From assembly GCA_964019135.1 (NCBI GenBank), contig OZ025265.1, positions 1,612,001-1,676,000 of the forward strand: 64,000 nt of DNA, in the 5' to 3' direction. How positions within the stretch are numbered: the stretch's first letter is position 1; each line of letters starts with the position of its first letter. The notes beneath the pieces were generated by a model. That model saw only the letters and a list, made by a program, of their open reading frames with translations. It was not told the DNA's origin and did not search any database. Both the position numbers and the translations under genes were made by a program. Positions 16,503 to 57,500 of this stretch are shown here, piece by piece. Source of the DNA: Arenicola marina (Eukaryota > Annelida > Polychaeta > Arenicolidae).

Positions 16503-18821
16503 TCAGGGGATTACGATAATAATCCCGATGACAACGGGTGGGCGGGTCATCCTCTTCACGCGAGCAGGACCTTTAACACAGCGAAACAATGACCCATTAT
16601 AACTGATGCCACAATATGCCATTATATGATTTCGTTATTAGGCATTATTAGTATCTTACTGTACAACTGTTACGGTTCTTACTGCTATTAATTTACTACA
16701 CATATCATACAGTTCCTTCACACATCACCTTGTGATGTCAAACCAAATGCAAAGTATTCAATGTAATTCAGCGATAACGCGTGCTGGTAATGCAACTTGG
16801 GATCCGATACTAAAATGGAAACACCAACGAAAAATGCAATAAACTGTAGCTCGAGAATTGATGAAGGTGATACATACCACTACCTTTTTCGGGACTTCTC
16901 TCCAGCCAGAATACGGGTTTTCCCCAGCAGGGGGCGTGTAGCTCTCTGGGCAACAGTGTCAGGTCCTTGACTGGCCAATCAGAGGCCTTTGCGTAGGTCA
17001 CAGACTCCGGGTGTTCCGGGTTAATGAGGTCATCGCCCTGGTGAGAGAGACGGACATTGCCATAATACACACCTGAACAGTAGAACGCATCCTCATAATG
17101 CGGTCCTAACCGGCCAATAGATAATGCTTGGTCTTTAGAGATTATCAAGTTCGCAGCTATTAGATTATTACATTACAGTAATTACCTGTCCATTCTCGAA
17201 GGCTCTCAGGATTTCCGTGGCGTTGGGAATTCTCTTGTCCACCCCTCCGATCAGGTAACATTCATCCGATTCCGACATGTGCATCCCAATTATGCCCTGT
17301 TTTGTGAAAGGCATTTGTAATCATATGACAAAAAAGCAAAATTAAGTTGGTGAAGCGATCGAAAGATTCCATCTTTTTTGAAATATGGAACAACTTGAAG
17401 GGAATTACGACACTGTTGTAGCCAAAGGGACGTACCTTGTTGTGGTCGATGACGACGATGGATCCCTGGAGACCCTCTCCGGACGGGTAGATGACCTCCT
17501 TGTTGGCCACCGGATTCACAACCACACGCTCCCCGTTTGCCGTCACCACCTCGAGGAGAAAGGTCATATATAGCATACTCCACTGATTGAAGCCTAAAGC
17601 CCAGCGCACACCAAGGATGTATGATCATAATAACCCAACATATTACATTATAGAAACCACATTTGAATTGTTCAGAACAATAGCATAAATGCTTTAAATT
17701 AACATAATGTCATGTAGATCTGGAAAAAAAACTGTAGACCATCACTAATCATGTGTTTTTAGTTGCTTTCCCGGATACTTCTTAAGCTTATACCTCAGTG
17801 TCCCCAAAGGAGCTGTCGGGTTCCATGTGATGTGGCTGCAAGAAAGATGGAAACAGAACGAAAGAGTAAATGATGTTCCTTTTTTCAAATTTTGCTAATT
17901 TATGCGATAGCGCAGGACTCTTCGCAAAAGAGCAAGGTTTATTCCCGGAGACACAGCTTCTCTCGCTATCTTGACCCTTACTCGATCCAAATACACGTAC
18001 ACCCAGACAAAAGAAATAAGGAGAAACGAGTAAATCACAGATTAAAAGTTTTGATGACCTAACAGGGACCGTGTGAGGCCAAGTGATGATTTCATATTAT
18101 TTACCCCACACACATCTCTGTATATGTGGCAACATGTCATGATATGTACTGGCTACACTTTATTTATTTAACTTTACACAATTCCTAGATGAACCATTCG
18201 TAGATCTTTAATCATGAGATATTGCCATTTCACCGGTATTGCTACTAAACCATGCAGTCTTTGAGTGTTTGTCTGCAATAATCTGAAACAGCGAATTGAA
18301 AACTGGGACCCACCTGCTCACAGTTGTGTTCTACTCTCCCGAGGTAGAGAGAACCCATGGTTGCCATAACGACCAAGGCGGCGGTCACGGCGCCTGCGTA
18401 GAACAATAGTCCCAACAGCCACTTCCGGTTGCTGACTCCGTTGTCGGACTGAAAACACATAGAGCCGCTGCAGACTTCGCAAATGTTCAACTCAAGTTTA
18501 TCTTTGACTTTATAGTTAAAATCTTGTCAACATCATTTGAAAAGCGACCTAAACAGCAGCATTCACGGACCGGCATTATAGTTGTTCTGGCAGAGCTGAC
18601 TCGACAAAGTTGTCAGAACAATCGCTGAACAAGAACAACTTTCTTATAAAATTAGAAAAAAATATTGTAAATGATGTTGATATTGGTGCATAAAATTTAT
18701 TCTTTTTGCATTATATATCTAAACACATTGTGTTTTAGTTGAATAATTAAACGTGTGTTTGTATTTATCTTACCTGTTGGCTTCTCGGGTAGGCTGGAGG
18801 TAGTTCACCTTTCTCCGCCAT
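16503..18821 (-). CDS. BRICHOS precursor, copy 1 (seven coding exons, hydrophobic tail)
   Basis: Exons on the minus strand: 18774-18821, 18314-18448, 17794-17835, 17436-17549, 17186-17296, 16878-17037, 16503-16570. All borders are GT-AG; introns 1-5 are phase 0 and intron 6 is phase 1. The predicted protein is 225 residues. The cytosolic start carries LPPAYP (a PPxY motif). A transmembrane helix spans about 27-52 (FYAGAVTAALVVMA core), followed by a luminal Cys. The BRICHOS domain covers about 85-200: the VIDHNKG strand, Cys126 in DECYL, an NAT sequon, WPVKDL, and Cys187 in APCWGKPVFWL. The last exon adds R-V-K-R at 207-210, a furin-type site, then a 15-residue tail with the run PPVVIGIIIVIP. 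Order and motifs match chondromodulin/tenomodulin-like BRICHOS proteins, so it is probably processed in the secretory pathway. Cleavage and function of the tail are inferred. The stop is followed within 8 bp by a minisatellite. Divergent from copy 2. Confidence 0.85.
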
Positions 18822-19839
18822 GGTCTACTTGGTCACTGGTCATTAAGGAAACAATATGATAATTGACTCTATAACAACAAAGGTTTCCTAAATTCAGAAC
18901 TAACAAGATCTTATGCTAATCCGCGGGCCCCATATTACACTATAATTGAACTAAACCATGCTCGTCTGGCACATATTACCTCAATACCCTGTGTTTTGGC
19001 GGCCGTATTCCTTGTCAGGTCTACTAACTGTTAGACCCTCCACGGAAAAAGACTTCGATACGCAGTTTAGTTCTATGAATGATGACAATGCACCTTACAG
19101 ATAACGTATTAATATCAATAGCGAAAACATAGGTACCTCGGTAGCTAAAGAAACAAAGAGAAACGACAACAGACGACGATGAGGCAAGGCGGCACGGAGG
19201 GTTTGCGTCCGTCAAAATGTCAGTGGCACAACGTACATATCGCAAGCCGTAAACAATCACCAATTCAAGTTACGACGTTTTATTTTATTTGTATGCCAGC
19301 ATTTTATTTACATGCCAGCTAATCTGTGTTCTGAGCGATAATAGGCCTGGATTTCAGTTCGATCTCTACGGAGTCCTGTCAGCTGGGGATACATAAATTA
19401 TATAAATCGTACGCATTTAGTTATGCGGGTATAAGTATGTGTCCTGGCTACTGCATGGCTGCATCGTCCGCCTCTTGTGGACGAGCCACATCAGTCGGGA
19501 GCCGGACAAAGGGGGAGAAGCCCATCGATGGCTCCGGGCGCTACCGCATACACGGCGTCATCTACGTACATTATTTCGTACTGCCGACGACATATTATAA
19601 TTCCTTTGTCTGTCACCATGGATCGATCGTAAAATTCGTTACAGAAAGCGTAATACGCGCCGCCATTGTCACCACGTGACGTGCTAGAGTCTTACCATTG
19701 TGCGGAATCTTCATACACCTACCGCGGCGCCCTCTTTCAATATATTTTGAACTGAATTCTGGATACATTAAAATGAATTAAAAATACCTTAAATTCCATT
19801 CAAGATAAGTGAAAAGCATCAGTATTTTAAATATCTCTG

Positions 19840-20270
19840 ATTGGATTTTAGAATTTAGTTTCACATTTCTTGAAATCGTTTCAAAATATGTAGAAATTAT
19901 TTTAAGTTATCTTGAAATAATGTTTAGATATCTTAAAATCATTTTTAGATATCTTGGAATCATTGTTAGATATCTTGAAATCATTCTAAGATATCTTGAA
20001 ATCATTCTAAGATATTTTGAAATTATTTCATGGTATCTTGAAATCATTTAAATATATCTTGAACTCATTTTATAGTATCTTGAAATCATTTTATGGTATC
20101 TTGAAATCATTTTATGGTATCTTCAAATCATCTGAAGATATCTTTAAGTCGTAAGAAAATATCTTTAAATCATTTGAAGATATCTTTAAATCATGTGAAG
20201 ACATCTTTAAATCATTTGCAGATATCTTGAATCATTTCAAGATATCTGTCATTGAATTCAAGATAACACG
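19840..20270. repeat. degenerate ~20-bp AT-rich repeat
   Basis: Repeats of GATATCTTGAAATCATT and variants, inside the inferred 5' UTR intron of copy 1. Confidence 0.85.
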
Positions 20271-20621: not shown

Positions 20622-20630
20622 CCTTAAATA
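20622..20630 (-). promoter_or_regulatory. candidate TATA element of copy 1
   Basis: The minus strand reads TATTTAAGG. A possible noncoding first exon follows and ends at a donor at 20517 (CATAAG|GTGAAT). A matching acceptor lies at 18835, just before the copy 1 start codon. The layout mirrors copies 3 and 4. No transcript evidence is available. Confidence 0.45.
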
Positions 20631-20678
20631 CCCACCACGTATGATACGAGGAATACTACGCGATTTACGCAAGTGCTT

Positions 20679-22374: not shown

Positions 22375-22889
22375 GCCTCGATTACGCACAATCCAGGCCC
22401 ATTTAACTGGAATAAACTTATTAACAAATATTATAACTTTACACACTAATACTTTTCTTTGAAATCATGTTTTGCCTCAGGGAAATTCCCTTTCTTCGTT
22501 TAACTTCCTTCAGACAAACTGCGTTTCAATTTTTCCAATAAAGTACAGGTCCAACATAGATAGTCATAATAAGAGAGAGAGGACAAAGAAAAACTTCAAA
22601 TACAACGATATGGCAGTTTTACATCTTTGTACAAACATTTACCAGGACTGAAGTGTCAACACTTTGTGGAAATGGATGCCTGACTGCGTCATGTAACCGA
22701 CACCCACAAGCCCTGGACACTCGAGTCCGGGACCCGTATGTCCGGGACCCACACGTCGACGACGCCCCATCCAGGCCTCAGGACAAAACACTCTAAATCA
22801 AGTTTCACAGGCTTTGCTTTGATATTGTGTATCGGGGAAATTCTCTTATCACGGTTCCCTGCCTTCGAACAAAGAGCCTCGGAAGTTTT

Positions 22890-22999
22890 TAGACCATATA
22901 CCGCCTTATGAAGCTGGTCTCTGCTTCAGGGAGACAAAGACCGCTCGGGACATTGATGAGTCAACAGCCATCGTGATCAGCCCAGGAACACGTGGGTAG
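22890..22999 (+). promoter_or_regulatory. candidate promoter and noncoding first exon of copy 2
   Basis: Sequence 22760-22999 aligns to the copy 4 5' region (cccatccagg...; gaacaaagagcct; agaccatataccgcctta). The TATA position is degenerate (CTTATGAAG, about 22905-22913). A donor TAG|GTGAGG at 22999 pairs with an acceptor GCTACAG ending at 23457, giving a 5' UTR intron. Confidence 0.45.
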
Positions 23000-23524: not shown

Positions 23525-26500
23525 ATGACCGAGAATGGTGAAATCCCCCCTGTCTGCTCTGGATTGTCGTCCAGGAAGGTATATTAAGCATTGCCTTGCA
23601 TTTTATACCAAACAAAGTGATGAAAGTGGAACATATAAATACATCATGTTGATATTAAGGGAAATAGAAAAGATGTGCCTTCCTTCCCTGATTCAAATTT
23701 GAGATTCCGTTTATTTAAAATATACAGAATTGTTCACTTTAACGTTCTCTAATTACCAAATCCGTTCACAGTCGCTCTTTGTTTACAGCCCGACACAGAC
23801 CGGAAGTGGCTCTTGACGCTGTTGTTCTACGCAGGCGCCGTCACCGCCGCCCTGGTCGTCATGGCAACTCTGGGTTCCATCTACATGAGAAAATTGGAGC
23901 ATTCTTGTGGCCCTCATGTGAGATTCAAGTCGTGTTCCCTGATCACCCAGTATTGCCTTTCCACTGGTATAGAGGTTTTGGCCCCACAGTCACAGTCATT
24001 GCATGAGATAATGGTCTAAGGCGGTTCTATTGACCACGCTTGACGTCAGGATACGATTACCTCACGAAAAGGTATTCTGCAATTCTACCGATCCACTATT
24101 ATGCCATGGTATGGTATTTGTTCCGTCCCACCATTATCATGTCAATGCAGTAATAATAATAATAATAATAATAATAATATATACAATTACACAGATTGGA
24201 CGTTTGTTCTTTCAGTTACGTGACCCGGCAGAACATGGTCCTTTGCCAGAGCTAAAGGTGATTAATTGATTCAGCCGTTCTTTGATTCGATCGATCGCGG
24301 CTATCGTGCTGTGGTTAAACTTTCATGACAGTGTCTAGATTTGCACTGTTTCTTATATTTTACCTCTGGTCTGCCTTTAATATTGAACTCTAAGTCTCTA
24401 TTCGTAACTGTTATTCAGGTGTCTTGCCACCAGGTAGACTTGGGCAGGGCTTGTCATTTGTTACTGCAGAAGATAAAGTGATATTCATTGTTGTTAAAGT
24501 GTCTCACTCGTGTGTCTTCCAGGAGATCCTTCGGGATTACGAGCGAGTGGTTGTGGATCCGGCGGCCAACAAGGAGGTCATCTACCCGTCCGGAGAGGGT
24601 CTCCAGGGATCCATCATCGTCATCGATCACAACAAGGTACGTCTTACCCGACACCGCCGACATGGCACGTCCATCACCAGGACACACATTCGCAAATGAA
24701 TGTTAGTTCGATTTTGACAAGTTGCTTCATCCATTCCATCAATTTTATAACGAAATCTATTGGACGCTCTCTCTTTCCGCTCCAACGTGACCTTATAACC
24801 TTTAAGCTGCCACGACTAAAATTCAGACGCGGACTTAAGACGCCGGTTCCCTAAAAGCCATTCTGACATTCCAAAGTAGTTTTGATGTATTAATCCGCTA
24901 AACAAGTGAGCTACATCGATCCGCCAATTTACATTTGATAACATCAGGTAAAATATGTTAAACATAGCAATAATCAACTGCCGACTGTCCTCAATTTTAT
25001 AGGTTTTCATAGTTTTGACTCGCAGATCACTTTTTACATGGGTTAATATGTTAATGGCACACCGCAGGGTCTCATCAGCATGTACATGGCGGCGATGGAC
25101 GAGTGCTTCCTGATAGGAGGGGTCGACAGAAGGCTCCCCAACGCCACAGAACTCCTGGCAGCCCTCCAGGGTGGACAGGTAGGACTGTAAGGCTGAGACC
25201 ACTGATGTAGCCCTCCAGGGTGGACAGTTAGGGCCGTAAGGCTGACACCACTGATGTAGCCCTCCAGGGTGGACAGGTAGGGCCGTAAGGCTGACACCAC
25301 TGATGTAGCCCTCCAGGGTGTACAGGTAGGGCCGTAACGCTGACACCACTGATGTAGCCCTCCAGGGTGGACAGGTACGGCCATAAGCCTGACACCACTG
25401 ATATAGCCCTCCATGGTGGACAGGTAGGGCCGTAAGGCTGACACCACAGATGTAGCCCTGCAGGGTGGACAGGTAGGGCCGTAAGGCTGACACCACAGAT
25501 GTAGCCCTTGTGGGTGGACAGATAGGGCCGTAAGTCTGACACCACTGATGTAGCCCTCCAGGGTGGACAGGTAAGGCTGTAAGGCTGACACCACTGATGT
25601 AGCCCTCCAGGGTGGACAGGTAGGGCTGTAAGGCTGACACCACTGATGTAGCCCTCCAGGGTAGACAGGTAGGGCTGTAAGGCTGACACAACTGTTGTAG
25701 CCCTCCAGGGTGGACAGGTAAGGCTGTAAGGCTGACACCACTGATGTAGCCCTCCAGAGTGGACAGCTAGGGCTGTCAGGCTGACACCACTGATGTAGCC
25801 CTCCAGGGTGGACCGGTAGGGCCGTAAGGCTGACACCACTGATGTAGCCCTCCAGAGTGGACAGGTAGGGCTGTCAGGCTGACACCACTGATGTAGCCCT
25901 CCAGGGTGGACCGGTAGGGCCGTAAGGCTGACACCACTGATGTAGCTCTCCAGGGTGGACAGGTGGAGGCGTAAGGCTGAGATCACCGATTTAGCCCTCC
26001 AGGGTCGACAGGTAGGGCCGTAGGGCTGTCACCACTGATGTAGCCCTCCAGGGTAGACAGGTAGGGCCGTAAGGCTGACACCACTGATGTAGCCGTCCAG
26101 GGTGGACAGGTAGGGCCGTAAGGCTGACACCACTGATGTAGCCCTCCAGGGTGGGCAGGTAGGATCGTAAGGCTGACACCACTGATGTAGCCCTCCAGGG
26201 TGGACATGTAGGGCCGTAAGGCTGACACCACTGATGTAGCCCTCCAGGATGGACAGGTAGGGCCGCAAGGCTGACACCACTGATAAAGCTTTTCAGGGTG
26301 GACAGGTAGGGCCGTAAGGCTGACACCACCGATGTAGCCCTCCAGGGTAGACAGTTAGGGCTGTAAGGCTGACACCACTGATGTAGCCCTCCCGGGTGGA
26401 CAGGTAGGGCCGTAAGGCTGACACCACTGATGTAACTCTCCAGGGTGGACAGGTAGGGCCGTAAGGCTGACACCACTGATGTAGCCCTCCAGGGTGGACA

Positions 26501-27466
26501 GGTAGGGCCGTAAGGCTGACACCACTGATGTAACTCTCCAGGGTGGACAGGTAGGGCCGTAAGGCTGACACCACTGATGTAGGGACCCGGATGCTGGACC
26601 GCAACAATGTCAATTTTCAATTAATGCAATATTTAAGTGCAAGATATGAACTCCCGGAACCGTTTGAAACCGTATGATTCCTGCTGTCCACAGAGTTGTC
26701 CATATATGTTCCGCATTCTTATGTATTTAAACCTTGTTTGTAGAATAAGGACTCGTCTGCCCGATATCAGGGGGTCAAGCTGACCTACGACAAGACCTCT
26801 GATTGGCCAGTCCAGGACCTGACGCTGCTGCCCAGAGAGCTACACGCCCCCTGCTGGGGGAAACCCGTCCACTGGCTGGAGAGACATGGCGAGGAAGAAA
26901 CCGGTAAGGCTTATTGTGATTGGTTCCCTGACAACACCGGCAACGTTTCATTTATTGTAACTGGTTCCCCTGATTTCCACGTTATTCAGTTCGTGGAAAT
27001 CAGTGCTATCCGTCTTGCACGTTAATCGGTTCGTACGAATCGGTTATATTAGATTTTCACATTTAATCCGTTTGTGTGAATACGTGATATCCGACTTCCA
27101 CGTTTCAATTCGTGGCAATCAGTGATATCTGACTTCCACGTTTAATCAGTTCGTGGGAATCAGTGATATCCGACTTCCACGTTTAATCAGTTCGTGTGAA
27201 TCAGTGAAATCCGACTTCCACGTTTAATCAGTTCGTGAGAATCAGTGATATGCCACTTCCATGATAAGTAAAGGAAACTTCGTGAGGAATGTTTTCGATT
27301 GACATGGTTTATTGTTTACTAATAAGTTGCTTTCTTCTGCTCATTCTATTCAGGATTGTCGCGGAATAAGCGAGCTGCCCTGGGAAATATCTGCGTCTGT
27401 TGTTGCTCTCCATGTCCTTGTGGTGAATCTGCCTCACGCCGATCGTTTCTCACGATGTATATTTGA
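23525..27466 (+). CDS. BRICHOS precursor, copy 2 (seven coding exons, Cys-rich tail)
   Basis: Exons: 23525-23578, 23789-23917, 24216-24257, 24523-24636, 25068-25178, 26744-26903, 27354-27466. The protein is 240 residues with the same intron phases as its paralogs. Exon 1 encodes MTENGEIPPVCS, so the PPxY tyrosine of the other copies is replaced by Cys. The transmembrane helix is about 26-50. BRICHOS cysteines are 126 and 187; the NAT sequon is kept. The last exon encodes LSRNKR (convertase site R-N-K-R, 207-210) and a 30-residue tail whose centre is CVCCCSPCPC (six Cys). Intron 5 begins at a donor that has been tandemly amplified about 28 times. Intron 6 holds a ~41-bp repeat. The role as a membrane-anchored chaperone and releasable peptide is inferred from BRICHOS family biology. 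It could also act as a chondromodulin-like extracellular regulator. Confidence 0.85.
24148..24180. repeat. (TAA)n microsatellite
   Basis: A run of TAA trinucleotides in intron 2 of copy 2. Confidence 0.95.
25179..26583 (+). repeat. 49-bp 'mirage' minisatellite in intron 5 of copy 2
   Basis: About 28 units of 49 bp. Each unit is the last 18 bp of exon 5 (GCCCTCCAGGGTGGACAG) plus the first 31 bp of intron 5 (gtaggrccgtaaggctga...), so most units repeat a splice donor CAG|GTAGG. On the minus strand the unit lacks stops in every frame, which produces long spurious open frames (LPVHPGGLHQWCQ...). Confidence 0.95.
26980..27260. repeat. ~41-bp degenerate repeat in intron 6 of copy 2
   Basis: About six units containing CCACGTTTAATCAGTTCGTG and ATCAGTGATATCCGACTT. 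Confidence 0.85.
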
Positions 27467-27790: not shown

Positions 27791-27799
27791 TATGGGGTG

Positions 27800-35442: not shown

Positions 35443-38400
35443 ATGGCGGAGAAAGGTGAACTACCCCCTGCCTACCCAAGCACACCAGAGGTGAGCAAAG
35501 TGTCCGTTCTGATGTCTTATGGACAACCAGGTGTCATCTTTAAATGATAGATATCACGTAAATCCTCGTTATCCCAAATCCCCATTCTCTCTTCCTTCGT
35601 CCAGCTCGGGGCACCGGGAAGTCGCTATTTCCGTGCGTTCTATTCATTACATATAGACTGCTTCGCAATCATAGTCAAAATTATTCCACTGTGAGGCGCC
35701 ATTTCATGTGCAATGCATTCTGGGTATTATTTTGGTCTTTGCGAGATGTCAAGATGGCGTCATTCCATGACGTATTTTGTAGACACTTAAACATGCAATA
35801 TTGCCATCTATGTAACGGAAAAGTTACGTAATCTGGATGTAAGTTAGACATGCTCAATCATTTTATACATGCCTTGCCAACAACCTGGAAATATGGTATT
35901 TATCTCCATAGAACAAATCAAGGTAACACCAAAATAGTTTCGAGAACTCTTTGCGCCAGTCAGGCTTTTTCCAAGATGGCGTATAACTGCGACGTCGTGT
36001 ATTGCCACAAAGTATCGACGTCATGAGTATGGCAAGTTGATGTCTTGTGTTTCTGTTTGTAGCCGAAGAGACAAGTCGGCACCCGGAAATGCCTCCTGGG
36101 GCTGACTTTCTACGCAGGCGCCGTGACCGCTGCTCTGGTCGTTATGGCAACCCTAGGTTCCATTTATGTGAGTCAAGTAGAACAGTCGTGTCAACAGGTA
36201 AGTGAATATCTAACCTCAACAGGATAAGAAAAATCTAAATGGCAGGGAATTTAGTTTGGCACTCTATAGCCGGTCTCCAGCTTAATCGACATACCTCACA
36301 TTTGGCTCACATCTGCCATTTACTACAATAATCCATGGGCTCTAAGATTGGGAATAAGAAGGCTGAAGGGCCAATATACACCCTCTCGCCTATGGCGCTA
36401 AAATACTGCATTGACAAGCTCCCATTCGCCAGGTGGCGCTCCGCGGCTCAAACCATTTCAGTCGCTTGGGAGGCAAGAATTCAAGATTATCGAAAACGAA
36501 TAATTGAGTTACAATTGCGATATCAATGAAAACAACGGGTCTTGCCTAATCCGTTACAGGGGACATTCTGGCATGCACGTGTTTCGGGTAACCACAACTC
36601 GCTCTGCGCCGCATAGTCGTATACGGCGCACGCAAAAGGCGGGTGCAGACCCTGAGGTGCAACGTTTTCAACAGTTAACAGGGGGCTTTCTATAAACGAA
36701 ACTCGCTTTGTGCAGATAAATATCTTGACTATAAAAGGATAGCATCTTAAGAATGCCAACCGGCGAATGTAATGACTTTCACAACGCTGTGCGTAGCAGG
36801 AAGCCGCCAAGTTACTGATTTGCTGATGTTCCTCAGTGGGGAAATAATGATTAGTCTGGAATCTATTTTGAAACGGTCATTTTGATGCATCTAATTGATT
36901 TAATCTGATGCGGCTAGGACTGCATCATAACGTCCACGCAGATCACGAGGGGGCGTTATGATACAGCTCCGAGCGGGAGTCTCAAACTCGATAATAGGGG
37001 ATTACTTTTCTATAGTAACAGGAATGAAGTCGATGGTATAATGAGTTTGAATGATATCTAGCATATGTGCTATTTGAGAATGAAGACTGCCACATGAGGG
37101 TCAAATCGGGATCCTAAGGGTCAATCCAGATCCTAGGGATCAAGTCGGGATCTGAAGAGTCATATCCGGATCGTAAGGGTTCAATCTGGATTTGAAGGGT
37201 CAACTCGAGGTCTGAGTTTTTAAATCTGGATCCTAGGGGTTCAATCTGCTTTTGAAGGGTCAACTCGGGATCTAACGGGTCAACTCGGGATCTTAACTTG
37301 TCAATCTGGATACTAGAGATTGAATCCGCATTCTAGGGGTCCAATCTGGATCTGAGAGCTCAAATATGGATCAGATATGTCAAATCGGGTACTGAAGGGT
37401 CAAATCGGGATATGAAGGGTCAATCTGGATTCTAGGGTCACATCGGGATCTGAGGGGTCAATCCGGATTTTAGGGGTCAATCTGAATATGAGGAACTAAT
37501 CTAGATCTTAGAGGTCAAATCTGGATCTGATGAGTTTATCGGGATACTAGGCGTCGAATCTGAATTCGAGGGGCAAATTTGGATTTGAGGGCTCAAATAT
37601 TCATTAGTAGGGACAAATCGAGATCTGCGCGAGGTGACGATGCGGCCTATAGCTCGATATCGCAGTCACGCTTAATCAAGTTGGACCTATTCTCCGATTT
37701 TCGTCATCCCTTTTCAAGCAATGATTGACGGTCTCGTATATATATGTTTAACTTTGCTTAGTTTATTATAGTTTTATCGATTAAAATCTTTTCACCTCTT
37801 AGCGAATTTATTTTTTTTCGTCCCTCGTCGCAAACTCTTCGAAGAATGACATTGAAGCGAGATTTTCATAAGGTGTAGACTTTTCAATAAAGACGTCGTG
37901 AACTATGTCACCTTCTGACACGAATTTATCGTTTATTTTTTCAGACTCGTGACGTGACGACCGACATGACGTCGAGCCACAGTGAGGTCAGTAACTTAGC
38001 AGACAGTGTCACAGTCACAACCACCCCCTCAATTGTGTGAAGATGAAAGATTGGCGGAACAATCGATCCAATGAAAAATGTTTACAGAGATAATATAAAG
38101 TTTTTGTTCTATCAGCGAGGCCCATTTATGGCTTGATGTGAGTCCATCAGGATGCTGAGTGTACATTAATGTGTTCTACTGACGCAAACACCGATCTATA
38201 ATTGTACATTTTGCGTCAGGCGTGACAACCCTGGTCCTGGCTTATTTTGGGTTGACGTTTTCGGTTCAAACATTTTCAATTTTTCTCTCCCCAGGAAGTG
38301 ACGACGAACGGGGAGCGAGTGGTTGTGGATCCGGTGGCCAACAAGGAGGTCATCTACCCGTCCGGAGAGGGTCTCCAGGGATCCATCATCGTCATCGACC

Positions 38401-41006
38401 ACAACAAGGTAGGTCCCTCCATCACTTTCCGTTTGTATGTACGTAGACATTGGCATGTAGGTGTGTAGGTACGTAATGAAGATATTTCAAAAGACATGTA
38501 TCACTTTATTAAAGCGGGTGTCCAACCTAATTTAATCGCGATCTGCACCGGAAGTTTACATCTTTAAATTCGATTGGCGAGTGTTAGCGTTTCGTTTCGG
38601 CCGACTGGTAAGGAGAAAAAAAATAAGGCAACCCGCGACCAGCAATGTCAAGCAGAGCGCCATTTTGCCGGGAGCAGTGACGCGTATTGTGACTATTCAT
38701 GTGGCACCGCCTTACGTTATCACTCGCAGAGAGAGAGATCAGGGCCGCGATTTACCGATGAACAGCGGCAGTTCCAAGCCACGCAGTAGCGCAAGATCTT
38801 AGTGTTTCATAGAAAAGTAGCGTCCAAACAAATTGATATACGTCTTGCGACGATTGACTCCGCAACAATGCCATGATTGGAGTTAGAATCGCAGCTCTTT
38901 AGATTAGCGATGATCACGCGCTCTTGTTTTGCTCACACAATAGGCGCAATTTCCGGTTTGAATAAATTAGAGTATCGCCTCTTGATTGGTCAAGCGCGGA
39001 CACACCTCCAAAAAGGGCTGCCGCCTGGGTAGGCGGCGAAATCGCGCCCGACGGTCACTTCTAAATTTTATTGTGAGCTATAGATAGGAGGAAAAATTCT
39101 ATAATTTGAGGATAGACAATTGGGTATTATATGAATCGGTAAAGCAGCGTTAGAGGCCAGGCTGGCGGTTCCCTTTAATGTTTTTTTCTGACAAATGTCC
39201 TTCACCCCACAGGGCATCATTGCGATGTACATGCCAGAATCGGATGAGTGCTATCTTGTGGGAGGGGTGGATAATAGAATCCCCAATGCCACAGAAATCT
39301 TGAGAGCCTTCAAGAACGGACAGGTAATAACTGACATTGTTTTGATTAGCAAATGATTATTATTAATGAAGTAAAGACAACGTAATGTTACATAGCATTT
39401 CAATAATTATGATTGTGAGCGGGAAATGAGAATTAGCTTGTGAAGGTGAGGTAGATCAATGTTCTTGGGTTCGAATGCTGGCCCGGGCACCTAATCTGGG
39501 GCATGTTTCATCCATTCATCCTTCCGTCCATCCTCGGGAGGTTGCCTGACCCAGCTGGCCCCTTGTGTTCAGCGGCAGCAACAGCGGCCTTCAAAGCACT
39601 AATTCATTTCAGTTTAGTAACAGTTATATGTATGGTAGTATTGACATTAATATGTCTCTTGCACCCACCAGGGCGATGACCTCTTGAACCCCGAACACCC
39701 GGAGTCCGTGACCTACGCAAAGGCCTCTGATTGGCCGGTCAAGGATCTGACGCTGCTACCCAGAGAGCTACATGCCCCCTGCTGGGGAAAACCCGTCTTT
39801 TGGCTGGAGAGGAGTCGTGACGAAGGCAGTGGTATGTAGCTTCATTACCTCACTATTTATTTGCGTGTTGTTTTCTGCATATTGTGGGTAAGAAAGAAAA
39901 CAGTTTCAGTCTTCGTTGCCTATTTAATGCATATACTTGGAAATACAAGGTAAAAATTCCGAAATGCTAGCCACGGTCAAGCATTCCTGCCCTTATAAAA
40001 CAAAGACGTTTGCGCTGGCTTAGACACGTTTATCGCATGCAGGACGGACGCATTTCAAAGAAGATTGAGCTCTGGTTGGAGAATAACACTTGAAACGCCA
40101 ACCTAGGAAACCAAACGACACCCCTAACTAACATGATTTCCCCTTGGCGGATCCAGTGATGTGTCTAGCGTGTGTCTGAATTCCAAGTTGTGCCCCCTCT
40201 CCTTTAATTGTCATAAAGCCCTCTATGTTGCATACCAACCACCCGCATACGTTAGATGCAAGCCCCGCGGATGTCCTCAGTTTTTTTCTGAGACCCCCCC
40301 TCTCCTTATTTTCATTTTTTATTTACTCCGCCCAAAGTTGACACTACCCCCCCCCCCCCGCCACCATCCCTTGTCCGCTTCAGTTCATTCAAGCGATTTA
40401 TTACTGGATATTTGGTCATAACTGTAGACCCATGACGTTAATTAATTGTATATTGTGTGGACTTGCATGCAGGTATCAATTATAATGGTTATTAGTATTC
40501 TACTTAATATTGATAAAGATATTAAAACTGATTATAATTTCAAAATTGATAATAATCTTAATAAATAATATATATATATATTAATATATTAATAATAATA
40601 AAGATGTTACTAATAATGTAGCAATAGCAATTAACATATTAACAGTAATCAACATACTAATAATAATTAAGGTATTAACAGTAATCAACATAATAATATG
40701 AACTAAGGTATTATAAGTTATTAGAAGGTATTATAAGGTATTATAATTAAAATGATAATAATAATAATGAAGACATTAATAATCATGTCGTTAAAACTAA
40801 TTAAAGTTAATAATAATTAATATTTTATAATATTTAATAATTGCTAATATTTTGTAACATTTAATAATTGCTAACATTTCATACTAATAATAAACTGCTA
40901 TAAGTCGTTGATGTTGTTGTTTTGTTGTACTTAAGGACTTGCCCGTATGAAGAGGATGAAGGGTCCAAGAATCACCATCACCATTACCATAGTCATCCGA
41001 TTTTAA
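35443..41006 (+). CDS. BRICHOS precursor, copy 3 (seven coding exons, Thr/Ile-rich tail)
   Basis: Exons: 35443-35490, 36063-36197, 37945-37986, 38295-38408, 39213-39323, 39672-39831, 40936-41006. The protein is 226 residues. It starts MAEKGELPPAYP (PPxY kept). The helix within exon 2 shares FYAGAVTAALVVMATLGS with the other copies. BRICHOS: VIDHNKG, Cys126, NAT sequon, WPVKDLTLLP, Cys187, FWLER. Exon 7 reads GLARMKR (R-M-K-R, 207-210) and then a 16-residue tail containing ITITITIVI. Exon 6 begins GDD and is closest to copy 1, so copies 1 and 3 form one subgroup. Intron 5 here has no 49-bp array. A different reading of exon 7 gives a His-rich frame, but the phase-1 junction and the match to copy 1 support the call. 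Confidence 0.85.
37090..37625. repeat. degenerate ~20-bp repeat in intron 2 of copy 3
   Basis: Many variants of GGGTCAAATCGGGATCTGAA. Confidence 0.85.
39445..39560 (+). repeat. possible SINE fragment in intron 5 of copy 3
   Basis: A B-box-like GGGTTCGAATGCTGG is followed by sequence similar in style to the 2.7 kb SINE (cgggcaccta...ccatcc). No clear A box. Confidence 0.3.
40480..40910. repeat. AT-rich (TAA/TTA) degenerate tract in intron 6 of copy 3
   Basis: Dense variants of AATAATAATTAA and AAGGTATTAT. Confidence 0.8.
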
Positions 41007-46299: not shown

Positions 46300-46990
46300 T
46301 GCAACAAGACCCCAAAAATAAGTCAGGCATCAGTCAGAAGTAGTGACAGTTGACCCTTGACCCTTGGCTCAAAGTACAAGGTCGCAGTTTCATCGCCGAA
46401 AGACAATGTGGTCCTGAGATGACCTCGTCGTTTAAAGTTGCACCCTAGTTTTGTACCTAAACGGGTCAATGGCACAATGCCAATGCCAATCTGAACGCTG
46501 AATATATACCGAGTAAAATACGTATGGATGCGCTTAGCAGCATAAACAGCATACATAAAGTCTATCTAATGTCGGGCCTGTGGTCGGTCAGTGATATCTG
46601 AAGGCGCCTGGGCGTTCCGAAGAGCACTAGGACAGGCGTCTTTCAACGACCTTTATTGTTCAATCATTTCCATGTCATCCAGGACTACATCAATATTTTA
46701 ACATTGTAATGGATGCAAATAGGTGTGTGCATCAGACCATCCAATACTTGTTGATCAAATGACAGTTTTATGTTGACACAAATGACGATATGTTGCTCTT
46801 TACAAAGTTAAAAGAAAGTCATATAGAAAGAGGAAAAATAACAACTTTCTTGACATTCAAAGAAAGAACGCATTTACTGAACTTATTTGTGCTAAATCGT
46901 CTGGAAATGGATGCATTACAGTTTTGCCAAATTTGTCTCACGTAGTAGGCTGCAAGCTATGAATTATATGCATGCGTTCTTTTACAAGGA
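46300..46990. other. intergenic stretch, no gene recognised
   Basis: No supportable feature seen between the MITE and the Mutator-like element. Confidence 0.4.
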
Positions 46991-47000
46991 TGGATGGGTC

Positions 47001-48586: not shown

Positions 48587-48768
48587 GGATGGGTCTACAT
48601 ATAACATGTAGGCACAAGTCGACTACGCCCCATCCAGGGCTCAAGAGAAAACACTGCAATTAAACTTTTTGACCCACTTTGCGTTGTTGTTGTGTATATG
48701 TATTCCATATCCACGGTTTAATGCTTGCGAACAAAGAGCCTCTGAACTGTTCAGACCATATTCCGCCT

Positions 48769-48840
48769 TATAAAGCTGGAGTCAGTTGCTCTGTCTCTAG
48801 GGCCACAGCTACCGTGTCCAGCCCAGAGATACTTTATTAG
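48769..48840 (+). promoter_or_regulatory. TATA box and noncoding first exon of copy 4
   Basis: A clear TATAAA is at 48769-48774. A presumed 5' UTR exon ends TTATTAG|GTAAGG at 48840. The acceptor GCTGTAG ends at 49377, and the ATG lies 64 bp further on. The same arrangement is present upstream of copy 2. Confidence 0.55.
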
Positions 48841-49441: not shown

Positions 49442-50285
49442 ATGGCCGAGAAAGGTGAAATTCCCCCGGTCTATCCAGGATGGTCGCAGGTACGTAAGCT
49501 GTAAGCTCTGTGTATCATTTTTTTTTTCAATGTCACAACCAAAGAAATGGACATATATGTATACATATACGTCACATATTAAGACGTGAAACTCGTAAAT
49601 GCCTCATGCCGATTATATGCCTTCATTGCCTGATTCATCTTGGGATTTAATTTATCTATTACAGAATCATACGTGTTAACTTTAAATTTAAGTGCCAAAT
49701 CCTTTGACAAATTGCTGTTTCTTTATTTTTATTGTTTTTCTTGTACCGCTTGCTGACAGTCGCTCTGTGTTTACAGCCTGAGAGAGACCGGAAGTGGCTC
49801 TTGGCGCTGCTGTTTTACGCAGGCGCCGTAACCGCCGCACTGGTCGTCACGGCAACTCTGGGTTCCATCCATATGGAAAAAATTGAGCGCACATGCGGCC
49901 CTCAGGTGACAGTTAAGTTGTATTCCCTGATCCCTGGTGTTGCTCTTTCGCTTGCGTCAAGATTTTGGATCCACAGTCAGAATCATTGTATGCAAAGAGG
50001 ATCTAAAAAAGGTTGTTTCATTGACCATGCGTGACGTCAGAATACGATTACCCAGCGGAGTGATATTCAGTATTTCTACCATTCCACTATTATCATGTCA
50101 ACGTAGTTAAATGAATAAGATACAATACAATCATACACTGATTGAATGTTGCATATTTTCAGTCACGTGACGCGGTAAATGGCCCTTTGTCGGAGCCAAA
50201 GGTGAGTGACGTTCGCTTTGACCTAACACAAGGGAATCTGTGGCAAATGCTTGATCTGAACCGGGCTCATCTGTTGTTCTACCTA

Positions 50286-50321
<36 letters not shown>

Positions 50322-53300
50322 TAATCTCACCTGTGTTTTCAAGCCTCTATGCGTAACTATTATACACATGTTCATGTCAATAAAGAGACTTGAGAAAAAA
50401 TTGTGATCGGCTTTTGACATGTTTATTACACAAGACATAAATATACATTATTTTTAAAGTGTCTGGCTTGTGAGTGTTCCAGGAGATCATTCGGGATGGG
50501 GAACGTATGGTTGTGGATCCGGTGACTAACAAGGAGGTCATCTACCCGTCCGGAGAGGGTCTTCAGGGATCCATCATCGTCATCGACCACAACAAGGTGC
50601 TTCCTTGTCTCCATCAGTCTTATCCGACCCAGCCTCGTTCATCACAAGCAAGGATCTCAAATAGATTTTGATAAATTCTCCTTTCAAAACACTATTTGAC
50701 GCTCCCGTTGCCCGGTCTAAGGTTTAGTGGCCTTAATCCTTGAGCTTCCACTACCTAAACTTAGACGTGCATTCATCATATCTTCGCGCCAAAGCCTTAA
50801 CGGTGATTCTGACTTTCCAATGCAATGTTGACGTATTCATCCGCAAGCCAAGTGAGCCGCGTTCTTTCTGCACTTTGTCTTACGCAATGAAGGATATAGT
50901 GGTATGTGTGATCGCGTTCCACTCTTGCGGCCAATGTATGGTATCGGTTTAAATTTCAGAACATTCACTGGAATTAAATGTAAAACGAAACAACTGCCAA
51001 CGAAACATCAATTTTGTGCTAATTTTGGAAATTTTCTAGATCTGGCGCGAGCTTAACACGGGTTTCACTGTTAATATGTTAATGGTACACCGCAGGGTCT
51101 CATCGGCATGTACATGGCGGCGATGGACGAGTGCTTCCTGATAGGAGGGGTCGACAGAAGGCTCCCCAACGCTACAGAACTCTTGGCAGCCCTCCAGGGT
51201 GGACATGTAGGACTGTAAGGCTGAGACCACTGATGTAGCCCTCCAGGGTGGACAGTTAGGGCCGTAAGGCTGACACCACTGATGTAGCCCTCCAGGGTGG
51301 ACAGGTAGGGCCGTAAGGCTGACACCACTGATGTAGCCCTCCAGGGTGAACAGGTAGGGCCGTAAGGCTGATACCACTGATGCAGCCCTTCAGAGTGGAC
51401 AGGTAGGGCGGTAAGGCTGACACCACTGATGTAGATGTTCAGGGTGGACAGGTAGGGCCGTAAGGCTGACACCACTGATGTAGCCCTCTAGGGTGGACAA
51501 GTAGGGCCTTAAGGCTGACACCACTGATGTAGCCCTCCAGGGTGGACAGGTAGGGCGGTAAGGCTGACACCACTGATGTAGATGTTCAGGGTGGACAGGT
51601 AGGGCCGTAAGGCTGACACCACTGATGTAGCCCTCCAGGGTGGACAGGTAGGGCCGTAAGGCTGACACCACTGATGTAGCCCTCCAGGGTGGACAGGTAG
51701 GGCTGTAAGGCTGACACCACTGATGTAGCTTTCAGGGTGGACAGGTAGGGCCGTAAGGCTGACACCACTGATGTAGCCCTCCAGTGTGGACAGTTAGGGC
51801 CGTAAGGCTGACACCACTGATGTAGCCCTCCAGGGTGGACAGGTAGGGCCGTAAGGCTGACACCACTGATGTAGCCTTTCAGGGTGGACAGGTAGGGCCG
51901 TAAGGCTGACACCACTGATGTAGCCCATCAGGGTGGACAGGTAGGGCTGTAAGGCTGACACCACTGATGAAGCCCTCCAGGGTGGTCAGGTAGGGCCGTA
52001 AGGCCGATACCTCTGACATAGCCCTCCAGGGTGGACAGGCAGGGCTGTAAGGTGATGTAGCCCCCAGGGTGGACAGGTGGGGCAGTAAGGCTGACGCCAC
52101 TGATGTAGCCCTCCAGGGTGGACAGGTAGGGCCGTAAGGCTGACACCACTGATGTAGCCCTCCAGGGTGGACAGGTAGGGCCGTAAGGCTGACACCACTG
52201 ATGCAGCCCTCCAGGGTGGACAGGTAGGGCCGTATGGCTGACACCACTGGTGCAGCCCTCCAGGGTGGACAGGTAGGGCCGTAAGGCTGACACAACTGAT
52301 GTAGCATTTCAGGGTGGACAGGTAGGGCCGTAAGGCTGATGCCACTGATGCAGCCCTTCAGAGTGGACAGGTAGGGCCGTAAGGCTGACACCACTGATGC
52401 AGCCCTCCAGGGTGGACAGGTAGGGCCGTAAGGCTGACACCACTGATGTAGCCCTCCAGGGTGGACAGGTAGGGCCGTAAGGCTGACACCACTGATGTAG
52501 CCCTCCAGGGTGGACAAGTAGGGCCGTAAGGCTGACACCACTGGTGCAGCCCTCCAGGGTGGACAGGTAGGGCCGTAAGGCTGACACAACTGATGTAGCA
52601 TTTCAGGGTGGACAGGTAGGGCCGTAAGGCTGATGCCACTGATGCAGCCCTTCAGAGTGGACAGGTAGGGCCGTAAGGCTGACACCACTGATGCAGCCCT
52701 CCAGGGTGGACAGGTAGGGCCGTAAGGCTGACACCACTGATGTAGCCCTCCAGGGTGGACAGGTAGGGCCGTAAGGCTGACACCACTGATGTTGCCCTCC
52801 AGGGTGGACAGGTAAGGCCGTAAGGCTGACACAACTGATGTAGCATTTCAGGGTGGACAGGTAGGGCCGTAAGGCTGATGCCACTGATGCAGCCCTTCAG
52901 AGTGGACAGGTAGGGCCGTAAGGCTGACACCACTGATGCAGCCCTCCAGGGTGGACAGGTAGGGCCGTAAGGCTGACACCACTGATGTAGCCCTCCAGGG
53001 TGGACAGGTAGGGCCGTAAGGCTGACACCACTGATGTAGCCCTCCAGGGTGGACAGGTAGGGCCGTAAGGCCGACACCGCTGATGTAGCCCTTCAGGGTG
53101 GACAGGTAGGGCCGTAAGGCTGACACCACTGATGTAGCCCTCCAGGGTGGACAGGTAGGGCCGTAAGGCCGACACCGCTGATGTAGCCCTTCAGGGTGGA
53201 CAGGTAGGGCCGTAAGGCTAACACCACTGATGTAGCCCTCCAGGGTGGTTAGGTAGAGCCGTAAGGTCGATACCTCTGACATAGCCCTCCAGGGTGGACA

Positions 53301-56300
53301 GGTAGGGCCGTAAGGCTGACACCACTGATGTAGCCCCCAGGGTGGACAGGTGGAGCAGTAAGGCTGACACCACTGATGTAGCCCTCCAGGGTGGACAGGT
53401 AGGGCCGTAAGGCTAACACCACTGATGTAGCCCTCCAGGGTGGTTAGGTAGAGCCGTAAGGTCGATACCTCTGACATAGCCCTCCAGGGTGGACAGGTAG
53501 GGCCGTAAGGCTGACACCACTGATGTAGCCCCCAGGGTGGACAGGTGGAGCAGTAAGGCTGACACCACTGATGTAGCCCTCCAGGGTGGACAGGTAGGGC
53601 CGTAAGGCTGACACCACTGATGTAGCCCTCCAGGGTGGACAGGTAGGGCCGTAAGGCTGACACCACTGATGTAGCCCTCCAGGGTGGACAGGTAGGGCCG
53701 TAAGGCTGACACCACTGATGCAGCCCTTCAGAGTGGACAGGTAGGGCCGTAAGGCTGACACCACTGATGCAGCCCTCCAGGGTGGACAGGTAGGGCCGTA
53801 AGGCTGACACCACTGATGTAGCCCTCCAGGGTGGACAGGTAGGGCCGTAAGGCTGACACAACTGATGTAGCCCTCCAGGGTGGACAGGTAGGGCCGTAAG
53901 GCCGACACCGCTGATGTAGCCCCTCAGGGTGGACAAGTATGGCCGTAAGGCTGACACCACTGATGTAGCCCTCCAGGGTGGACAGGTAGGGCCGTAAGGC
54001 CGACACCGCTGATGTAGCCCTTCAGGGTGGACAGGTAGGGCCGTAAGGCTAACACCACTGATGTAGCCTTCCAGGGTGGTTAGGTAGAGCCGTAAGGTCG
54101 ATACCTCTTACATAGCCCTCCAGGGTGGACAGGTAGGGCCGTAAGGCTGACACCACTGATGTAGCCCCCAGGGTGGACAGGTGGAGCAGTAAGGCTGACA
54201 CCACTGATGTAGCCCTCCAGGGTGGACAGGTAGGGCCGTAAGGCTGACACCACTGTTGTAGCCCTCCAGGGTGGACAGGTAGAGCCGTAAGGTCGATACA
54301 TCTGACATAGCCCTCCAAGGTGGACAGGTAGGGCCGTAAGGCTGACACCACTGATGTAGCCCCCAGGGTGGACAGGTGGAGCAGTAAGGCTGACACCACT
54401 GATGTAGCCCTCCAGGGTGGACAGGTAGGGCCGTAAGGCTGACACCACTGATGTAGCCCTCCAGGGTGGACAGGTAGGGCCGTAAGGCTGACACCACTGA
54501 TGTAGCCCTCCAGGGTGGACAGGTAGGGCCGTAAGGCTGACACCACTGATGTAGCCCTCCAGGGTGGACAGGTAGGGCCGTAAGGCTGACACCACTGATG
54601 TAGCCCTCCAGGGTGGACAGGTATGGCTGTAAGGCTGACACCACTGATGTAGCCCTCCAGGGTGGACAGGTAGGGCCGTAAGGCCGACACCGCTGATGTA
54701 GCCCTTCAGGGTGGACAGGTAGGGCTGTAAGGCTGACACCACTGATGAAGCCCTCCAGGGTGGACAGGTAGGACCGTAAGGCTGACACCACTGATGTAGC
54801 CCTCCAGGGTGGACAGGTAGGGCCGTAAGGCTGACACCACTGATGTTGCCCTCCAGCGTGGACAGGTAGGGCTGTAAGGCTGACACCACTGATGTAGCCC
54901 TCCAGGGTGGACAGGTAGGACCGTAAGGCTGACACCACTGATGTAGCCCTCCAGGGTGGACAGGTAGGGCCGTAAGGCTGACACCACTGATGTAGCCCTC
55001 CAGGGTGGACAGGTAGGGTGGTAAGGCCGACACCGCTGATGTAGCCCTTCAGGGTGGACAGGTAGGGCTGTAAGGCTGACACCACTGATGAAGCCCTCCA
55101 GGGTGGACAGGTAGGACCGTAAGGCTGACACCACTGATGTAGCCCTCCAGGGTGGACAGGTAGGGCCGTAAGGCTGACACCACTGATGTTGCCCTCCAGG
55201 GTGGACAGGTAGGGCTGTAAGGCTGACACCACTGATGTAGCCCTCCAGGGTGGACAGGTAGGACCGTAAGGCTGACACCACTGATGTAGCCCTCCAGGGT
55301 GGACAGGTAGGGCCGTAAGGCTGACACCACTGATGTTGCCCTCCAGGGTGGACAGGTAGGGCTGTAAGGCTGACACCACTGATGTAGCCCTCCAGGGTGG
55401 ACAGGTAGGGCCGTAAGGCTGACACCACTGATGTAGCTCTCCAGGGTGGACAGGTAGGGCCGTAAGGCTGAAACCACTGATGTAGCCCTCTAGGGTGGAC
55501 AGGTAGGGCCGTAAGGCTGACACCACTGATGTAGCCCTTCAGGGTGGACAGATATGGCTGTAAGGCTGACACCACTGATGTAGCCCTCAAGGGTGGACAG
55601 GTAGGGCAGTAAGGCTGACACCACTAATGTAGCCCTCCAGGGTGGACAGGTAGGGCCGTAAGGCTGACACCACTGGGGTAGCCCTCAAGGGTGGACAGGT
55701 AGGGCTGTAAGGCTGACGCCACTGATGTAGCCCTCCAGAGTGGACAGGTAGGGCCGTAAGGCTGACTCGACTGATGTAGCCCTTCAGGGTGGACAGGTAG
55801 GGCTGTAAGGTTGACACCACTGATGTTGCCCTCCAGGGTGGACAGGTAGGGCTGTAAGGCTGACACCACCGATGTTGCCATCCAGGGTAGACAGGTAGGG
55901 CCGTAGGGCTGACACCACTGATGTAACCCTCTAGGGTGGACAGTTAGAGCCATAAGGCTGACAGCACTGATGTAACTCTCTAGGGTGGACAGGGAGGGCC
56001 GTAAGGCTGACACCACTGATGTAGCCCTCCGGGTTGTACAGGTAGGGCCGTAAGGCTGACACCACTGATGTAGCCCTCCAGAGTGGACAGGTAGGGCCGT
56101 AAGGCTGACACCACTTATGTAGCCCTCCAGAATTGACAGGTAGGGCTGTAAGGCTGACACCACGGATGTTGGTACCCATTTGCAGCCAACGATCACAATA
56201 TAAATCTGCCTGACTGAGGTTTACTTGCAGCTACCGTTATTTTAGGCTTCATTTTACATTTGCACGGGATAACAGGGGATCAGAGTTCGCCTTTGACCTC

Positions 56301-57500
56301 GATCTCGAAACTAACATGGCCTTTTATTCAAAATAGTCTGTATTCGTATGATACCAGCGGCATAGTAAATAGTGATGTATGAATGAAATGTCGATTCATG
56401 ATCTGTTGATGAAAAGACTTGGGCGGTCTACGGTGTTACATATCTCATTTTTTTTACATCTGACTTCACATTTGCTTTCAAAGCTATATCTTTTTTATTT
56501 TTGACATTTGATTTCACAGCTCATTCCATTGCCTTACTCAACTGTCAAAGGGATATGACAGAGTGGCTAACTCATGTGGGATGTCAGCAATACAACCATG
56601 AATATTGTCCGTGGCTGACGAAAGACAACGTCAAGTTGTCTTCGTTTGCGTTGGACAGAACCCAACGAACATTAATGATAATTTCAAGGAACTGCAACCT
56701 GTTCTGATTCAAACCCTGTTTGTAGACTGAGGAGTCGACGGACCGAGGTCAGGGGGTCACGCTGAACTACGTCAAGGCCTCTGATTGGCCAGTCCAGGAC
56801 CTGACGCTATTGCCCAGAAAGCTACGCGCCCCCTGCTGGGAAAAACCAGTCTTCTGGCTGGAGAGACAGAACGAGGAAGAAACCCGTAAGATTTAGTGCG
56901 ACTTGCTTCTTGTCAACACTGAGTCTCGGTCAACAAACCGGTAAGGGGTTTCGGGCTTGGGTCCGTGTCAAGAAACAGATAGGGTTTATCGTGACTGGCT
57001 CTCTGTCAAAAAACCTGCACCTGCTGTATTATGGCTGGTTCTCTGTCAACAAAACACTAAGGTGTATTGCACGAGGTTCGCTATCGTTACTGAAATCTGC
57101 TGTATTATGGCTGGTTCCCTGTCAACAAAACAATAAGGTGTATGGCACGATGTTCGCTATCGTTACTGAGATCTGGGGTATTATGGCTGGTTCCCTGTCA
57201 ACAAAACACTAAGGTGTATTGCAGGAGGTTCGCTATCGTTACTGAGATCTGCTGTATTATGGCTGGTTCCCTGTCAAAAAAACAATAAGGTGTATTGCAG
57301 GAGGTTCACTATCGTTACTGAGATCTGGTGTATCATGGCTGGTTCCCTGTCAACAAAACACTAAGGCGTATTGCACGAGGTTCGCTATCTTCTTTTCTTC
57401 AGCGTTGTCTCGGGACAAGCGAGCTCCTAAAGCTGCTAATACTGCTAAAAGTGGAAAATGCTGTTCGTGCCAACGTTTGTGTTGCGATCACGGTGAGTAA
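49442..57500 (+). CDS. BRICHOS precursor, copy 4 (seven coding exons, Cys-rich tail)
   Basis: Exons: 49442-49489, 49777-49905, 50163-50201, 50483-50596, 51096-51206, 56726-56885, 57403-57500. The protein is 232 residues. It starts MAEKGEIPPVYP (PPxY kept). BRICHOS cysteines are 123 and 184, with NAT retained. The convertase site is R-D-K-R (204-207), followed by a 25-residue tail containing CCSCQRLCC and ending HGE. It is the closest relative of copy 2. Oddities: exon 6 has LPRKLRAPCWEK where the others have LPRELHAPCWGK, and the exon 5 donor reads CAT|GTAGGA instead of CAG|GTAGGA. Intron 5 is 5.5 kb, almost all of it a 49-bp array copying that donor. Whether it is still spliced correctly is uncertain, but every coding exon is open. 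Confidence 0.8.
50289..50318. repeat. (TA)n microsatellite in intron 3 of copy 4
   Basis: A pure run of TA dinucleotides. Confidence 0.95.
51207..56172 (+). repeat. 49-bp 'mirage' minisatellite in intron 5 of copy 4
   Basis: About 100 units of the same 49-bp exon-intron border repeat as in copy 2. Block duplications are visible: a variant with ctgatgcc recurs at 52336, 52630 and 52875 (294 and 245 bp apart, 6 and 5 units). Long minus-strand open frames here (up to 472 codons) are products of the repeat and not genes. Confidence 0.95.
56990..57400. repeat. ~76-bp repeat in intron 6 of copy 4
   Basis: About five units with ATGGCTGGTTCCCTGTCAAC, AAAACA.TAAGGTGTATTGCA and GAGGTTCGCTATCGTTACTG. 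It ends immediately before the exon 7 acceptor. Confidence 0.9.

Follow-up and report, generated by a model that had tools for sequence, protein, structure and literature searches.

What do four neighbouring genes make when they share one body and end in different peptides? This question is raised by a 64,000-nucleotide stretch of the polychaete Arenicola marina (NCBI GenBank assembly GCA_964019135.1, contig OZ025265.1, here C20, positions 1612001-1676000 of the forward strand), hereafter called the window, in which four complete seven-exon BRICHOS genes were found within positions 16503-57500, gene A on the minus strand and genes B, C and D on the plus strand. In each, a short N-terminal piece is followed by a hydrophobic helix that is conserved, then by a BRICHOS domain and finally by a separate last exon that carries an R-x-K-R site and a variable C-terminal peptide (the tail). 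From the sequence, A to D are probably transmembrane-type precursors of the annelid BRICHOS antimicrobial peptide kind, whose tail would be freed for defence.

Four genes with one body and different tails

The gene models were obtained by combining matches between paralogs with splice sites. The genes span positions 18821-16503 (A, minus strand), 23525-27466 (B), 35443-41006 (C) and 49442-57500 (D, the last three on the plus strand) and code for proteins of 225, 240, 226 and 232 residues, respectively. The original prediction had described four paralogs with a common exon structure, and this was borne out in all four: each gene has seven exons, all introns possess a GT donor and an AG acceptor, and the intron phases are alike (0 at exons 1-6, then 1 into the last exon). 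Moreover, exons 4, 5 and 6 have identical lengths (114, 111 and 160 nt) throughout. A first impression that gene C had no exon 1 was overturned by the exon found at 35443. The exons are the following.

18774..18821, minus strand: gene A exon 1, MAEKGELPPAYPRSQQ, PPxY motif
18314..18448, minus strand: gene A exon 2, hydrophobic (transmembrane) helix
17794..17835, minus strand: gene A exon 3, linker
17436..17549, minus strand: gene A exon 4, invariant BRICHOS Asp
17186..17296, minus strand: gene A exon 5, first BRICHOS Cys and N-A-T sequon
16878..17037, minus strand: gene A exon 6, second BRICHOS Cys
16503..16570, minus strand: gene A exon 7, GPARVKR and tail MTRPPVVIGIIIVIP (15 residues)
23525..23578, plus strand: gene B exon 1, MTENGEIPPVCSGLSSRK, no PPxY
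23789..23917, plus strand: gene B exon 2, hydrophobic (transmembrane) helix
24216..24257, plus strand: gene B exon 3, linker
24523..24636, plus strand: gene B exon 4
25068..25178, plus strand: gene B exon 5
26744..26903, plus strand: gene B exon 6
27354..27466, plus strand: gene B exon 7, GLSRNKR and Cys-rich tail AALGNICVCCCSPCPCGESASRRSFLTMYI (30 residues)
35443..35490, plus strand: gene C exon 1, MAEKGELPPAYPSTPE, PPxY motif
36063..36197, plus strand: gene C exon 2, hydrophobic (transmembrane) helix
37945..37986, plus strand: gene C exon 3, linker
38295..38408, plus strand: gene C exon 4
39213..39323, plus strand: gene C exon 5
39672..39831, plus strand: gene C exon 6
40936..41006, plus strand: gene C exon 7, GLARMKR and tail MKGPRITITITIVIRF (16 residues)
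49442..49489, plus strand: gene D exon 1, MAEKGEIPPVYPGWSQ, PPxY motif
49777..49905, plus strand: gene D exon 2, hydrophobic (transmembrane) helix
50163..50201, plus strand: gene D exon 3, linker
50483..50596, plus strand: gene D exon 4
51096..51206, plus strand: gene D exon 5
56726..56885, plus strand: gene D exon 6
57403..57500, plus strand: gene D exon 7, PLSRDKR and Cys-rich tail APKAANTAKSGKCCSCQRLCCDHGE (25 residues)

The transmembrane helix and the BRICHOS cysteines claimed for these paralogs were both recovered. Each protein contains a single hydrophobic segment, located within residues 24-47 and with a mean Kyte-Doolittle value of about 2 over 21 residues. The BRICHOS profile PF04089 matches the four proteins over positions 5-91 of its 91 positions, with scores of 33.1 (A), 32.1 (C), 27.7 (D) and 22.2 bits (B); three of these exceed the curated cut-off of 25 bits, and B lies below it, with an E value of 1.7e-4. 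The triad that is invariant in the superfamily, an Asp followed after 16 residues by a Cys and after 61 further residues by a second Cys, is present in each protein, as is an N-A-T sequon. In ITM2A, the triad corresponds to D144, C160 and C219 (PMC2751770). In all of A to D the N-terminal hydrophobic anchor thus precedes the BRICHOS domain, which is followed by the dibasic site and the C-terminal peptide. When PF04089 was run against the genome itself no match was obtained, the controls likewise giving none, probably since exons were searched singly, and a PDB sequence search with protein D returned no BRICHOS match.

The R-x-K-R site occupies codons 4-7 of the last exon, the split codon being numbered 1, in the four genes (RVKR in A, RNKR in B, RMKR in C and RDKR in D), in agreement with the single place predicted for it. 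The motif by itself was rejected as evidence, as the window contains 46 occurrences of a loose DNA pattern for it and shuffled sequence a mean of 47; the evidence is its fixed place in a homologous last exon. A scan of both strands of the window for phase-1 last exons with a basic site gave 38 candidates, a number comparable to that of shuffled sequence (19-40 per one strand in five shuffles). Four of the 38 begin with.[LP][SA]RxKR, and these are the last exons of the four genes. Further last exons inside the window were rejected, given that the other candidates do not have this start and that their count is at shuffle level.

Downstream of the site, the tails of A, B, C and D count 15, 30, 16 and 25 residues, contain 0, 6, 0 and 5 Cys and bear net charges of +1, +1, +3 and +2, respectively. 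They had been predicted to differ completely between subgroups; this is true of A/C compared with B/D, and inside each pair the tails are strongly different.

The first exons code for 16-18 residues and include a PPxY motif in A, C and D, B being devoid of it. Across the cluster to which the window belongs (C20:1.63-1.72 Mb), PPxY was seen in 7 of the 8 first exons detected by pattern, B being the one that lacks it. PPxY motifs bind WW domains, and these first exons are a hint of regulated trafficking.

A large family and its kinship with arenicin

The original prediction spoke of a local family of four, which proved too narrow. In the genome (867 Mb, 762 contigs), searched at E up to 10, where the counts are lower bounds for large families, exon 6 has at least 41 matches, 35 of them on C20, the weakest (E 5.5) carrying stops; the transmembrane exon has at least 28 matches and exon 4 at least 33. 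Six further members, E(-), F(+), G(+), H(-), I(-) and J(+), extend the cluster of the window rightward as far as about 1.74 Mb, and no family member was found in the 100 kb to its left. Since E, F and G are arranged and oriented like A, B and C, a segment was probably duplicated. In G, exon 5 is frame-broken and GC instead of GT follows exon 1, and of J only exon 6 was seen. A second C20 cluster, at 2.76-2.99 Mb, holds 15 exon 6 matches; the others on C20 lie at 14.5 Mb (5), 15.0 Mb (1), 22.6 Mb (3) and 31.0 Mb (1), and single matches occur on C2, C9, C10, C11, C18 and C685.

Two distant relatives of the bodies, loci L049 and L050, possess a 21-residue tail, GYCWYVCVNRNGVRACYK(Q/R)CG. The L049 tail (the Q form), which served as the query, matches arenicin-3 (PDB 5V0Y) with an E value of 6e-8; the L050 tail, not itself used as a query, differs from it by one residue. 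The presence of arenicin-3-like tails on kin of the bodies points to the window genes being of the annelid BRICHOS antimicrobial peptide kind. By this kinship with members of the same genome, the host defence role put forward in the original prediction gains support.

Last exons were scanned at 30 of the 41 exon 6 loci. Of these 30 loci, 25 yielded a phase-1 last exon that carries a basic site, and none was within reach in the other five, L023 (G), L040 (J), L042, L046 and L048. When a locus offered several candidates, the one with a family-like start was picked by eye. An orthologous family without the R-x-K-R site had been named as a finding that would speak against the prediction; the site is there in 25 of the 30 loci, although its presence is not independent evidence because the scan required it, and only its fixed place is. 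The 25 loci yield 26 tails, which were sorted by eye into about nine kinds.

A, C, E, H, L024b, L026: strands with alternating Ile
I, L030, L031: RPPD-IIV-DYIILIW
L034, L035 (and L032, placed here by its body): hydrophobic with CC
L028, L029: three-Cys
B, F: six-Cys
D: five-Cys
L038, L039: long, rich in Cys, Pro and Thr
L043, L044, L045, L047: eight-Cys
L049, L050: arenicin-like
L024a: groups with no other tail

The extra tail comes from the L024 gene (C20:2768786-2771944), in which two last exons stand in tandem, 199 bases apart, and code for different tails. The two are identical at 51 of the 60 bases that lead up to and include the basic site. In the genome, a 26-base pattern for the start of this exon (at most 3 mismatches allowed) has four occurrences, of which the L024 pair accounts for two, and its reversed control has none. 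The tandem exons are possible alternative terminal exons.

The size of this family bears on whether the genes could be membrane-bound housekeeping proteins of the ITM2/Bri2 type, their C-terminal peptide being a by-product. ITM2B/Bri2 has the same layout of type II helix, BRICHOS triad and basic site ahead of a short C-terminal peptide, and the helix of the window genes is well conserved. However, ITM2 is not known as an expanded family with diverse tails. In addition, A and C are devoid of the C-terminal Cys pair that is strict in most BRICHOS families (PMC2751770). We regard this explanation as very improbable.

Divergence and history of the tails

Nonsynonymous divergence (pN) is far greater in the tail than in the BRICHOS domain, with values of 0.35 versus 0.05 for A-C and of 0.49 versus 0.09 for B-D (gapped alignment); in both pairs the synonymous divergence (pS) of the tail is also far higher. 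The body (exons 2, 4, 5 and 6) is constrained, as pN and pS amount to 0.018 and 0.124 between the duplicates A and E and to 0.044 and 0.170 between the duplicates B and F. For A-E, the tail reaches a pN of 0.46 and a pS of 0.56, and the excess over the body at nonsynonymous sites is supported by a Fisher p of 7e-14, sites being taken as independent. For B-F, the tail values are 0.074 and 0.226 and the difference from the body is not significant (p 0.35). The claim that the last exon diversifies thus applies in the extreme to A-E, whereas the B-F tails are not significantly faster than their bodies, and fast tail change is no general rule.

These two pairs also bear on the idea of a signalling role, in which the tails would be hormone-like or neuropeptide-like peptides set free as other convertase products are. 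Such peptides would be in keeping with a convertase-type site in a secretory-type precursor, with the Cys-rich tails of B and D and with the likeness of the B and F tails. The great difference between the A and E tails is, however, not typical of receptor ligands under constraint; none of the four window tails ends in an amidation Gly or contains a repeated peptide, and arenicin-like tails occur on kin of the bodies. A signalling role is therefore improbable.

Positive selection on the tails is not claimed, as the A-E tail pS is as raised as its pN; this joint rise would be in keeping, too, with a last exon that is older or was exchanged. Between A and E the divergence of introns 4, 5 and 6 is 0.19, 0.15 and 0.30, and between E and H it is 0.24, 0.21 and 0.13. 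This mosaic suggests partly separate histories of the upstream part and the last-exon part, and conversion or crossing-over near exon 6 as their origin. Together with true divergence, such separate histories could account for the tails. A wholesale swap of tail kinds between body lineages was rejected: a tree of the bodies needs 10 changes of tail label for a minimum of 9, so that tails mostly follow bodies. This tree, built on 24 exon 5-6 fragments and 69 columns, is weakly supported, with 8 of its 19 inner branches open, and leaves out 6 of the 30 loci, gene D included, whose fragment the pattern missed.

Between A/C and B/D, exon 4 (17436-17549, 24523-24636, 38295-38408 and 50483-50596) shows a pS of 0.20-0.28, for 0.48-0.64 at exons 2 and 5 and intermediate values (0.30-0.48) at exon 6, and the introns share no match of 40 bases or more. 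The low value could reflect either gene conversion or constraint. It is not general, as exon 4 is not the least diverged exon in B-D and B-F.

Intron 5 contains a 49-bp minisatellite in B (25160-26582, 29 copies) and in D (51188-56169, 102 copies), each starting within the last 19 bases of exon 5, and the exon-intron border has thereby been multiplied. The sequence CAGGTAGG occurs 18 times in the B minisatellite and 81 times in that of D, and outside these two arrays it is absent from both strands of the window; each copy is a possible decoy splice donor. The 3' end of gene A may have been reshaped by a 62-bp minisatellite of 8 copies (16001-16495), whose end lies 7 bases away from the stop codon of this gene. 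Genes B and D are each preceded, about 0.7 kb before exon 1, by a block (22750-22917 and 48613-48779); the two blocks are 77% alike and are perhaps a promoter or an untranslated exon. An inverted repeat (46960-47301 / 48286-48660) is about 82-96% alike in translated pieces. At 61674-62121, on the minus strand, two overlapping frames match reverse transcriptase (RVT_1) with 29.9 bits (just above the cut-off of 29.6) and 23.7 bits (below it), and are probably an old retroelement.

Possible role of the tails and relation to known precursors

Several points weigh against a defence function of the antimicrobial kind. The identity of the window bodies to the arenicin-tailed members is only about 48-57% per exon and none of the transmembrane-exon matches (at least 28) lies near these members, so that the window tails may have another function. 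In addition, tails A and C are Cys-free, the tails of B and F have not outpaced their bodies, and net charge, counted from K/R and D/E only, is 0 or less in 9 of the 26 tails and +1 in 5, which is atypical for cationic antimicrobials.

These low charges would be in keeping with an alternative in which the Cys-free strand tails are self-assembling (functional amyloid) peptides instead of membrane-lytic antimicrobials, BRICHOS keeping the tail soluble until a convertase cut let it form fibres, nets or a mucus component. Several class I tails do alternate between hydrophobic and polar residues. Among eight tails tested, the alternating runs of C (8 residues), E (10), H (14), L024b (7) and L026 (8) were reached by 312, 10, 0, 202 and 333, respectively, of 20000 composition-keeping shuffles; BRICHOS is moreover described (PMC10182729) as a chaperone of strand-prone, amyloid-prone regions. 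However, A, L035 and L030 do not alternate more than chance would give (their runs were reached by 12652, 19996 and 19960 of 20000 shuffles), and the pattern was selected only after the sequences had been seen. Furthermore, Cys-free predicted beta-hairpin tails are known among the BRICHOS antimicrobial candidates reported in PMC10745061, so that the alternation fits an antimicrobial function too. Self-assembly is accordingly rather unlikely, yet the least improbable of the alternatives.

For the preferred reading, that of defence peptide precursors, the following course is proposed. The precursor would be inserted as a type II protein in the secretory pathway, where BRICHOS would bind the strand-prone tail and prevent its aggregation during secretion, in line with the BRICHOS biology outlined in PMC10182729 and PMC9627735. 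A furin-like convertase would cleave after K-R and release the tail, as suggested by the motif and by statements in PMC9410094 and PMC10745061. Judging by kinship, the released tail would serve as an extracellular defence peptide, with microbial membranes as its most likely target. Many peptides would then come to stand behind one chaperone through the duplication of genes, through recombination or conversion between the copies and through divergence of the last exon, which in one gene is duplicated as well.

The transmembrane form of BRICHOS antimicrobial precursor is already known in annelids, and the window genes, by their sequence, probably belong there. Transmembrane-type beta-hairpin precursors have been reported in Urechis and Bonellia (UuBRI-21, UcBRI-21 and BvBRI-21; PMC9410094). 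In Heteromastus, PMC10745061 lists 13 peptides of nine structural families, with a membrane helix in 5 of the 13 (HfBRI-20, -23, -25, -28 and -54), HfBRI-20 and -23 being Cys-free predicted beta-hairpins. The window genes resemble these precursors in the short N-terminal piece, helix, BRICHOS domain, dibasic site and variable peptide, and in the many tail kinds per species. Unlike those precursors, which were found in transcriptomes, the present genes make gene order, exon structure and paralog divergence visible.

Preproarenicin and preproalvinellacin share the BRICHOS propiece and the C-terminal peptide, but have a signal peptide in place of the membrane helix (PMC9410094 and PMC5431198). 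In Alvinella, the peptide is likewise in the last exon and the genes are in tandem; there, the peptide is conserved between paralogs and BRICHOS varies, according to PMC5431198, whereas here the body is the constant part and the tail the variable one. In a literature search with most subscription journals outside its coverage, BRICHOS, antimicrobial peptide, exon and alternative splicing were not found jointly in one paper, and among the papers listed for last exons and gene clusters only this Alvinella paper mentions BRICHOS. What is new here is the gene architecture, the very rapid divergence of the tails of one pair of duplicates, which another pair does not show, the gene with two tandem last exons, and the Cys-free, weakly charged tails of an alternating beta-strand type.

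In cathelicidins, too, the propiece is conserved and the defence peptide at the C-terminus varies greatly; their prodomain is unrelated to BRICHOS and the likeness is an analogy only. Along this line, a bolder and rather unlikely proposal is a cathelicidin-like, chaperone-guarded system, in which last exons behind a constant BRICHOS body could duplicate in tandem, as in the gene with two of them, and diverge. The resulting peptides, weakly charged and of an alternating beta-strand type, would join into extracellular fibres or nets once a convertase had released them, and BRICHOS would be the anti-amyloid safety catch in a system that makes an amyloid deliberately.

The family adds new candidate peptides and offers a genomic view of how a BRICHOS peptide repertoire originates, from a constant body, a variable last exon and clusters with many tail kinds. 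As its related BRICHOS domains precede tails of about nine kinds, it is a natural series in which one chaperone fold meets different clients, which makes the relation between the two a testable question.

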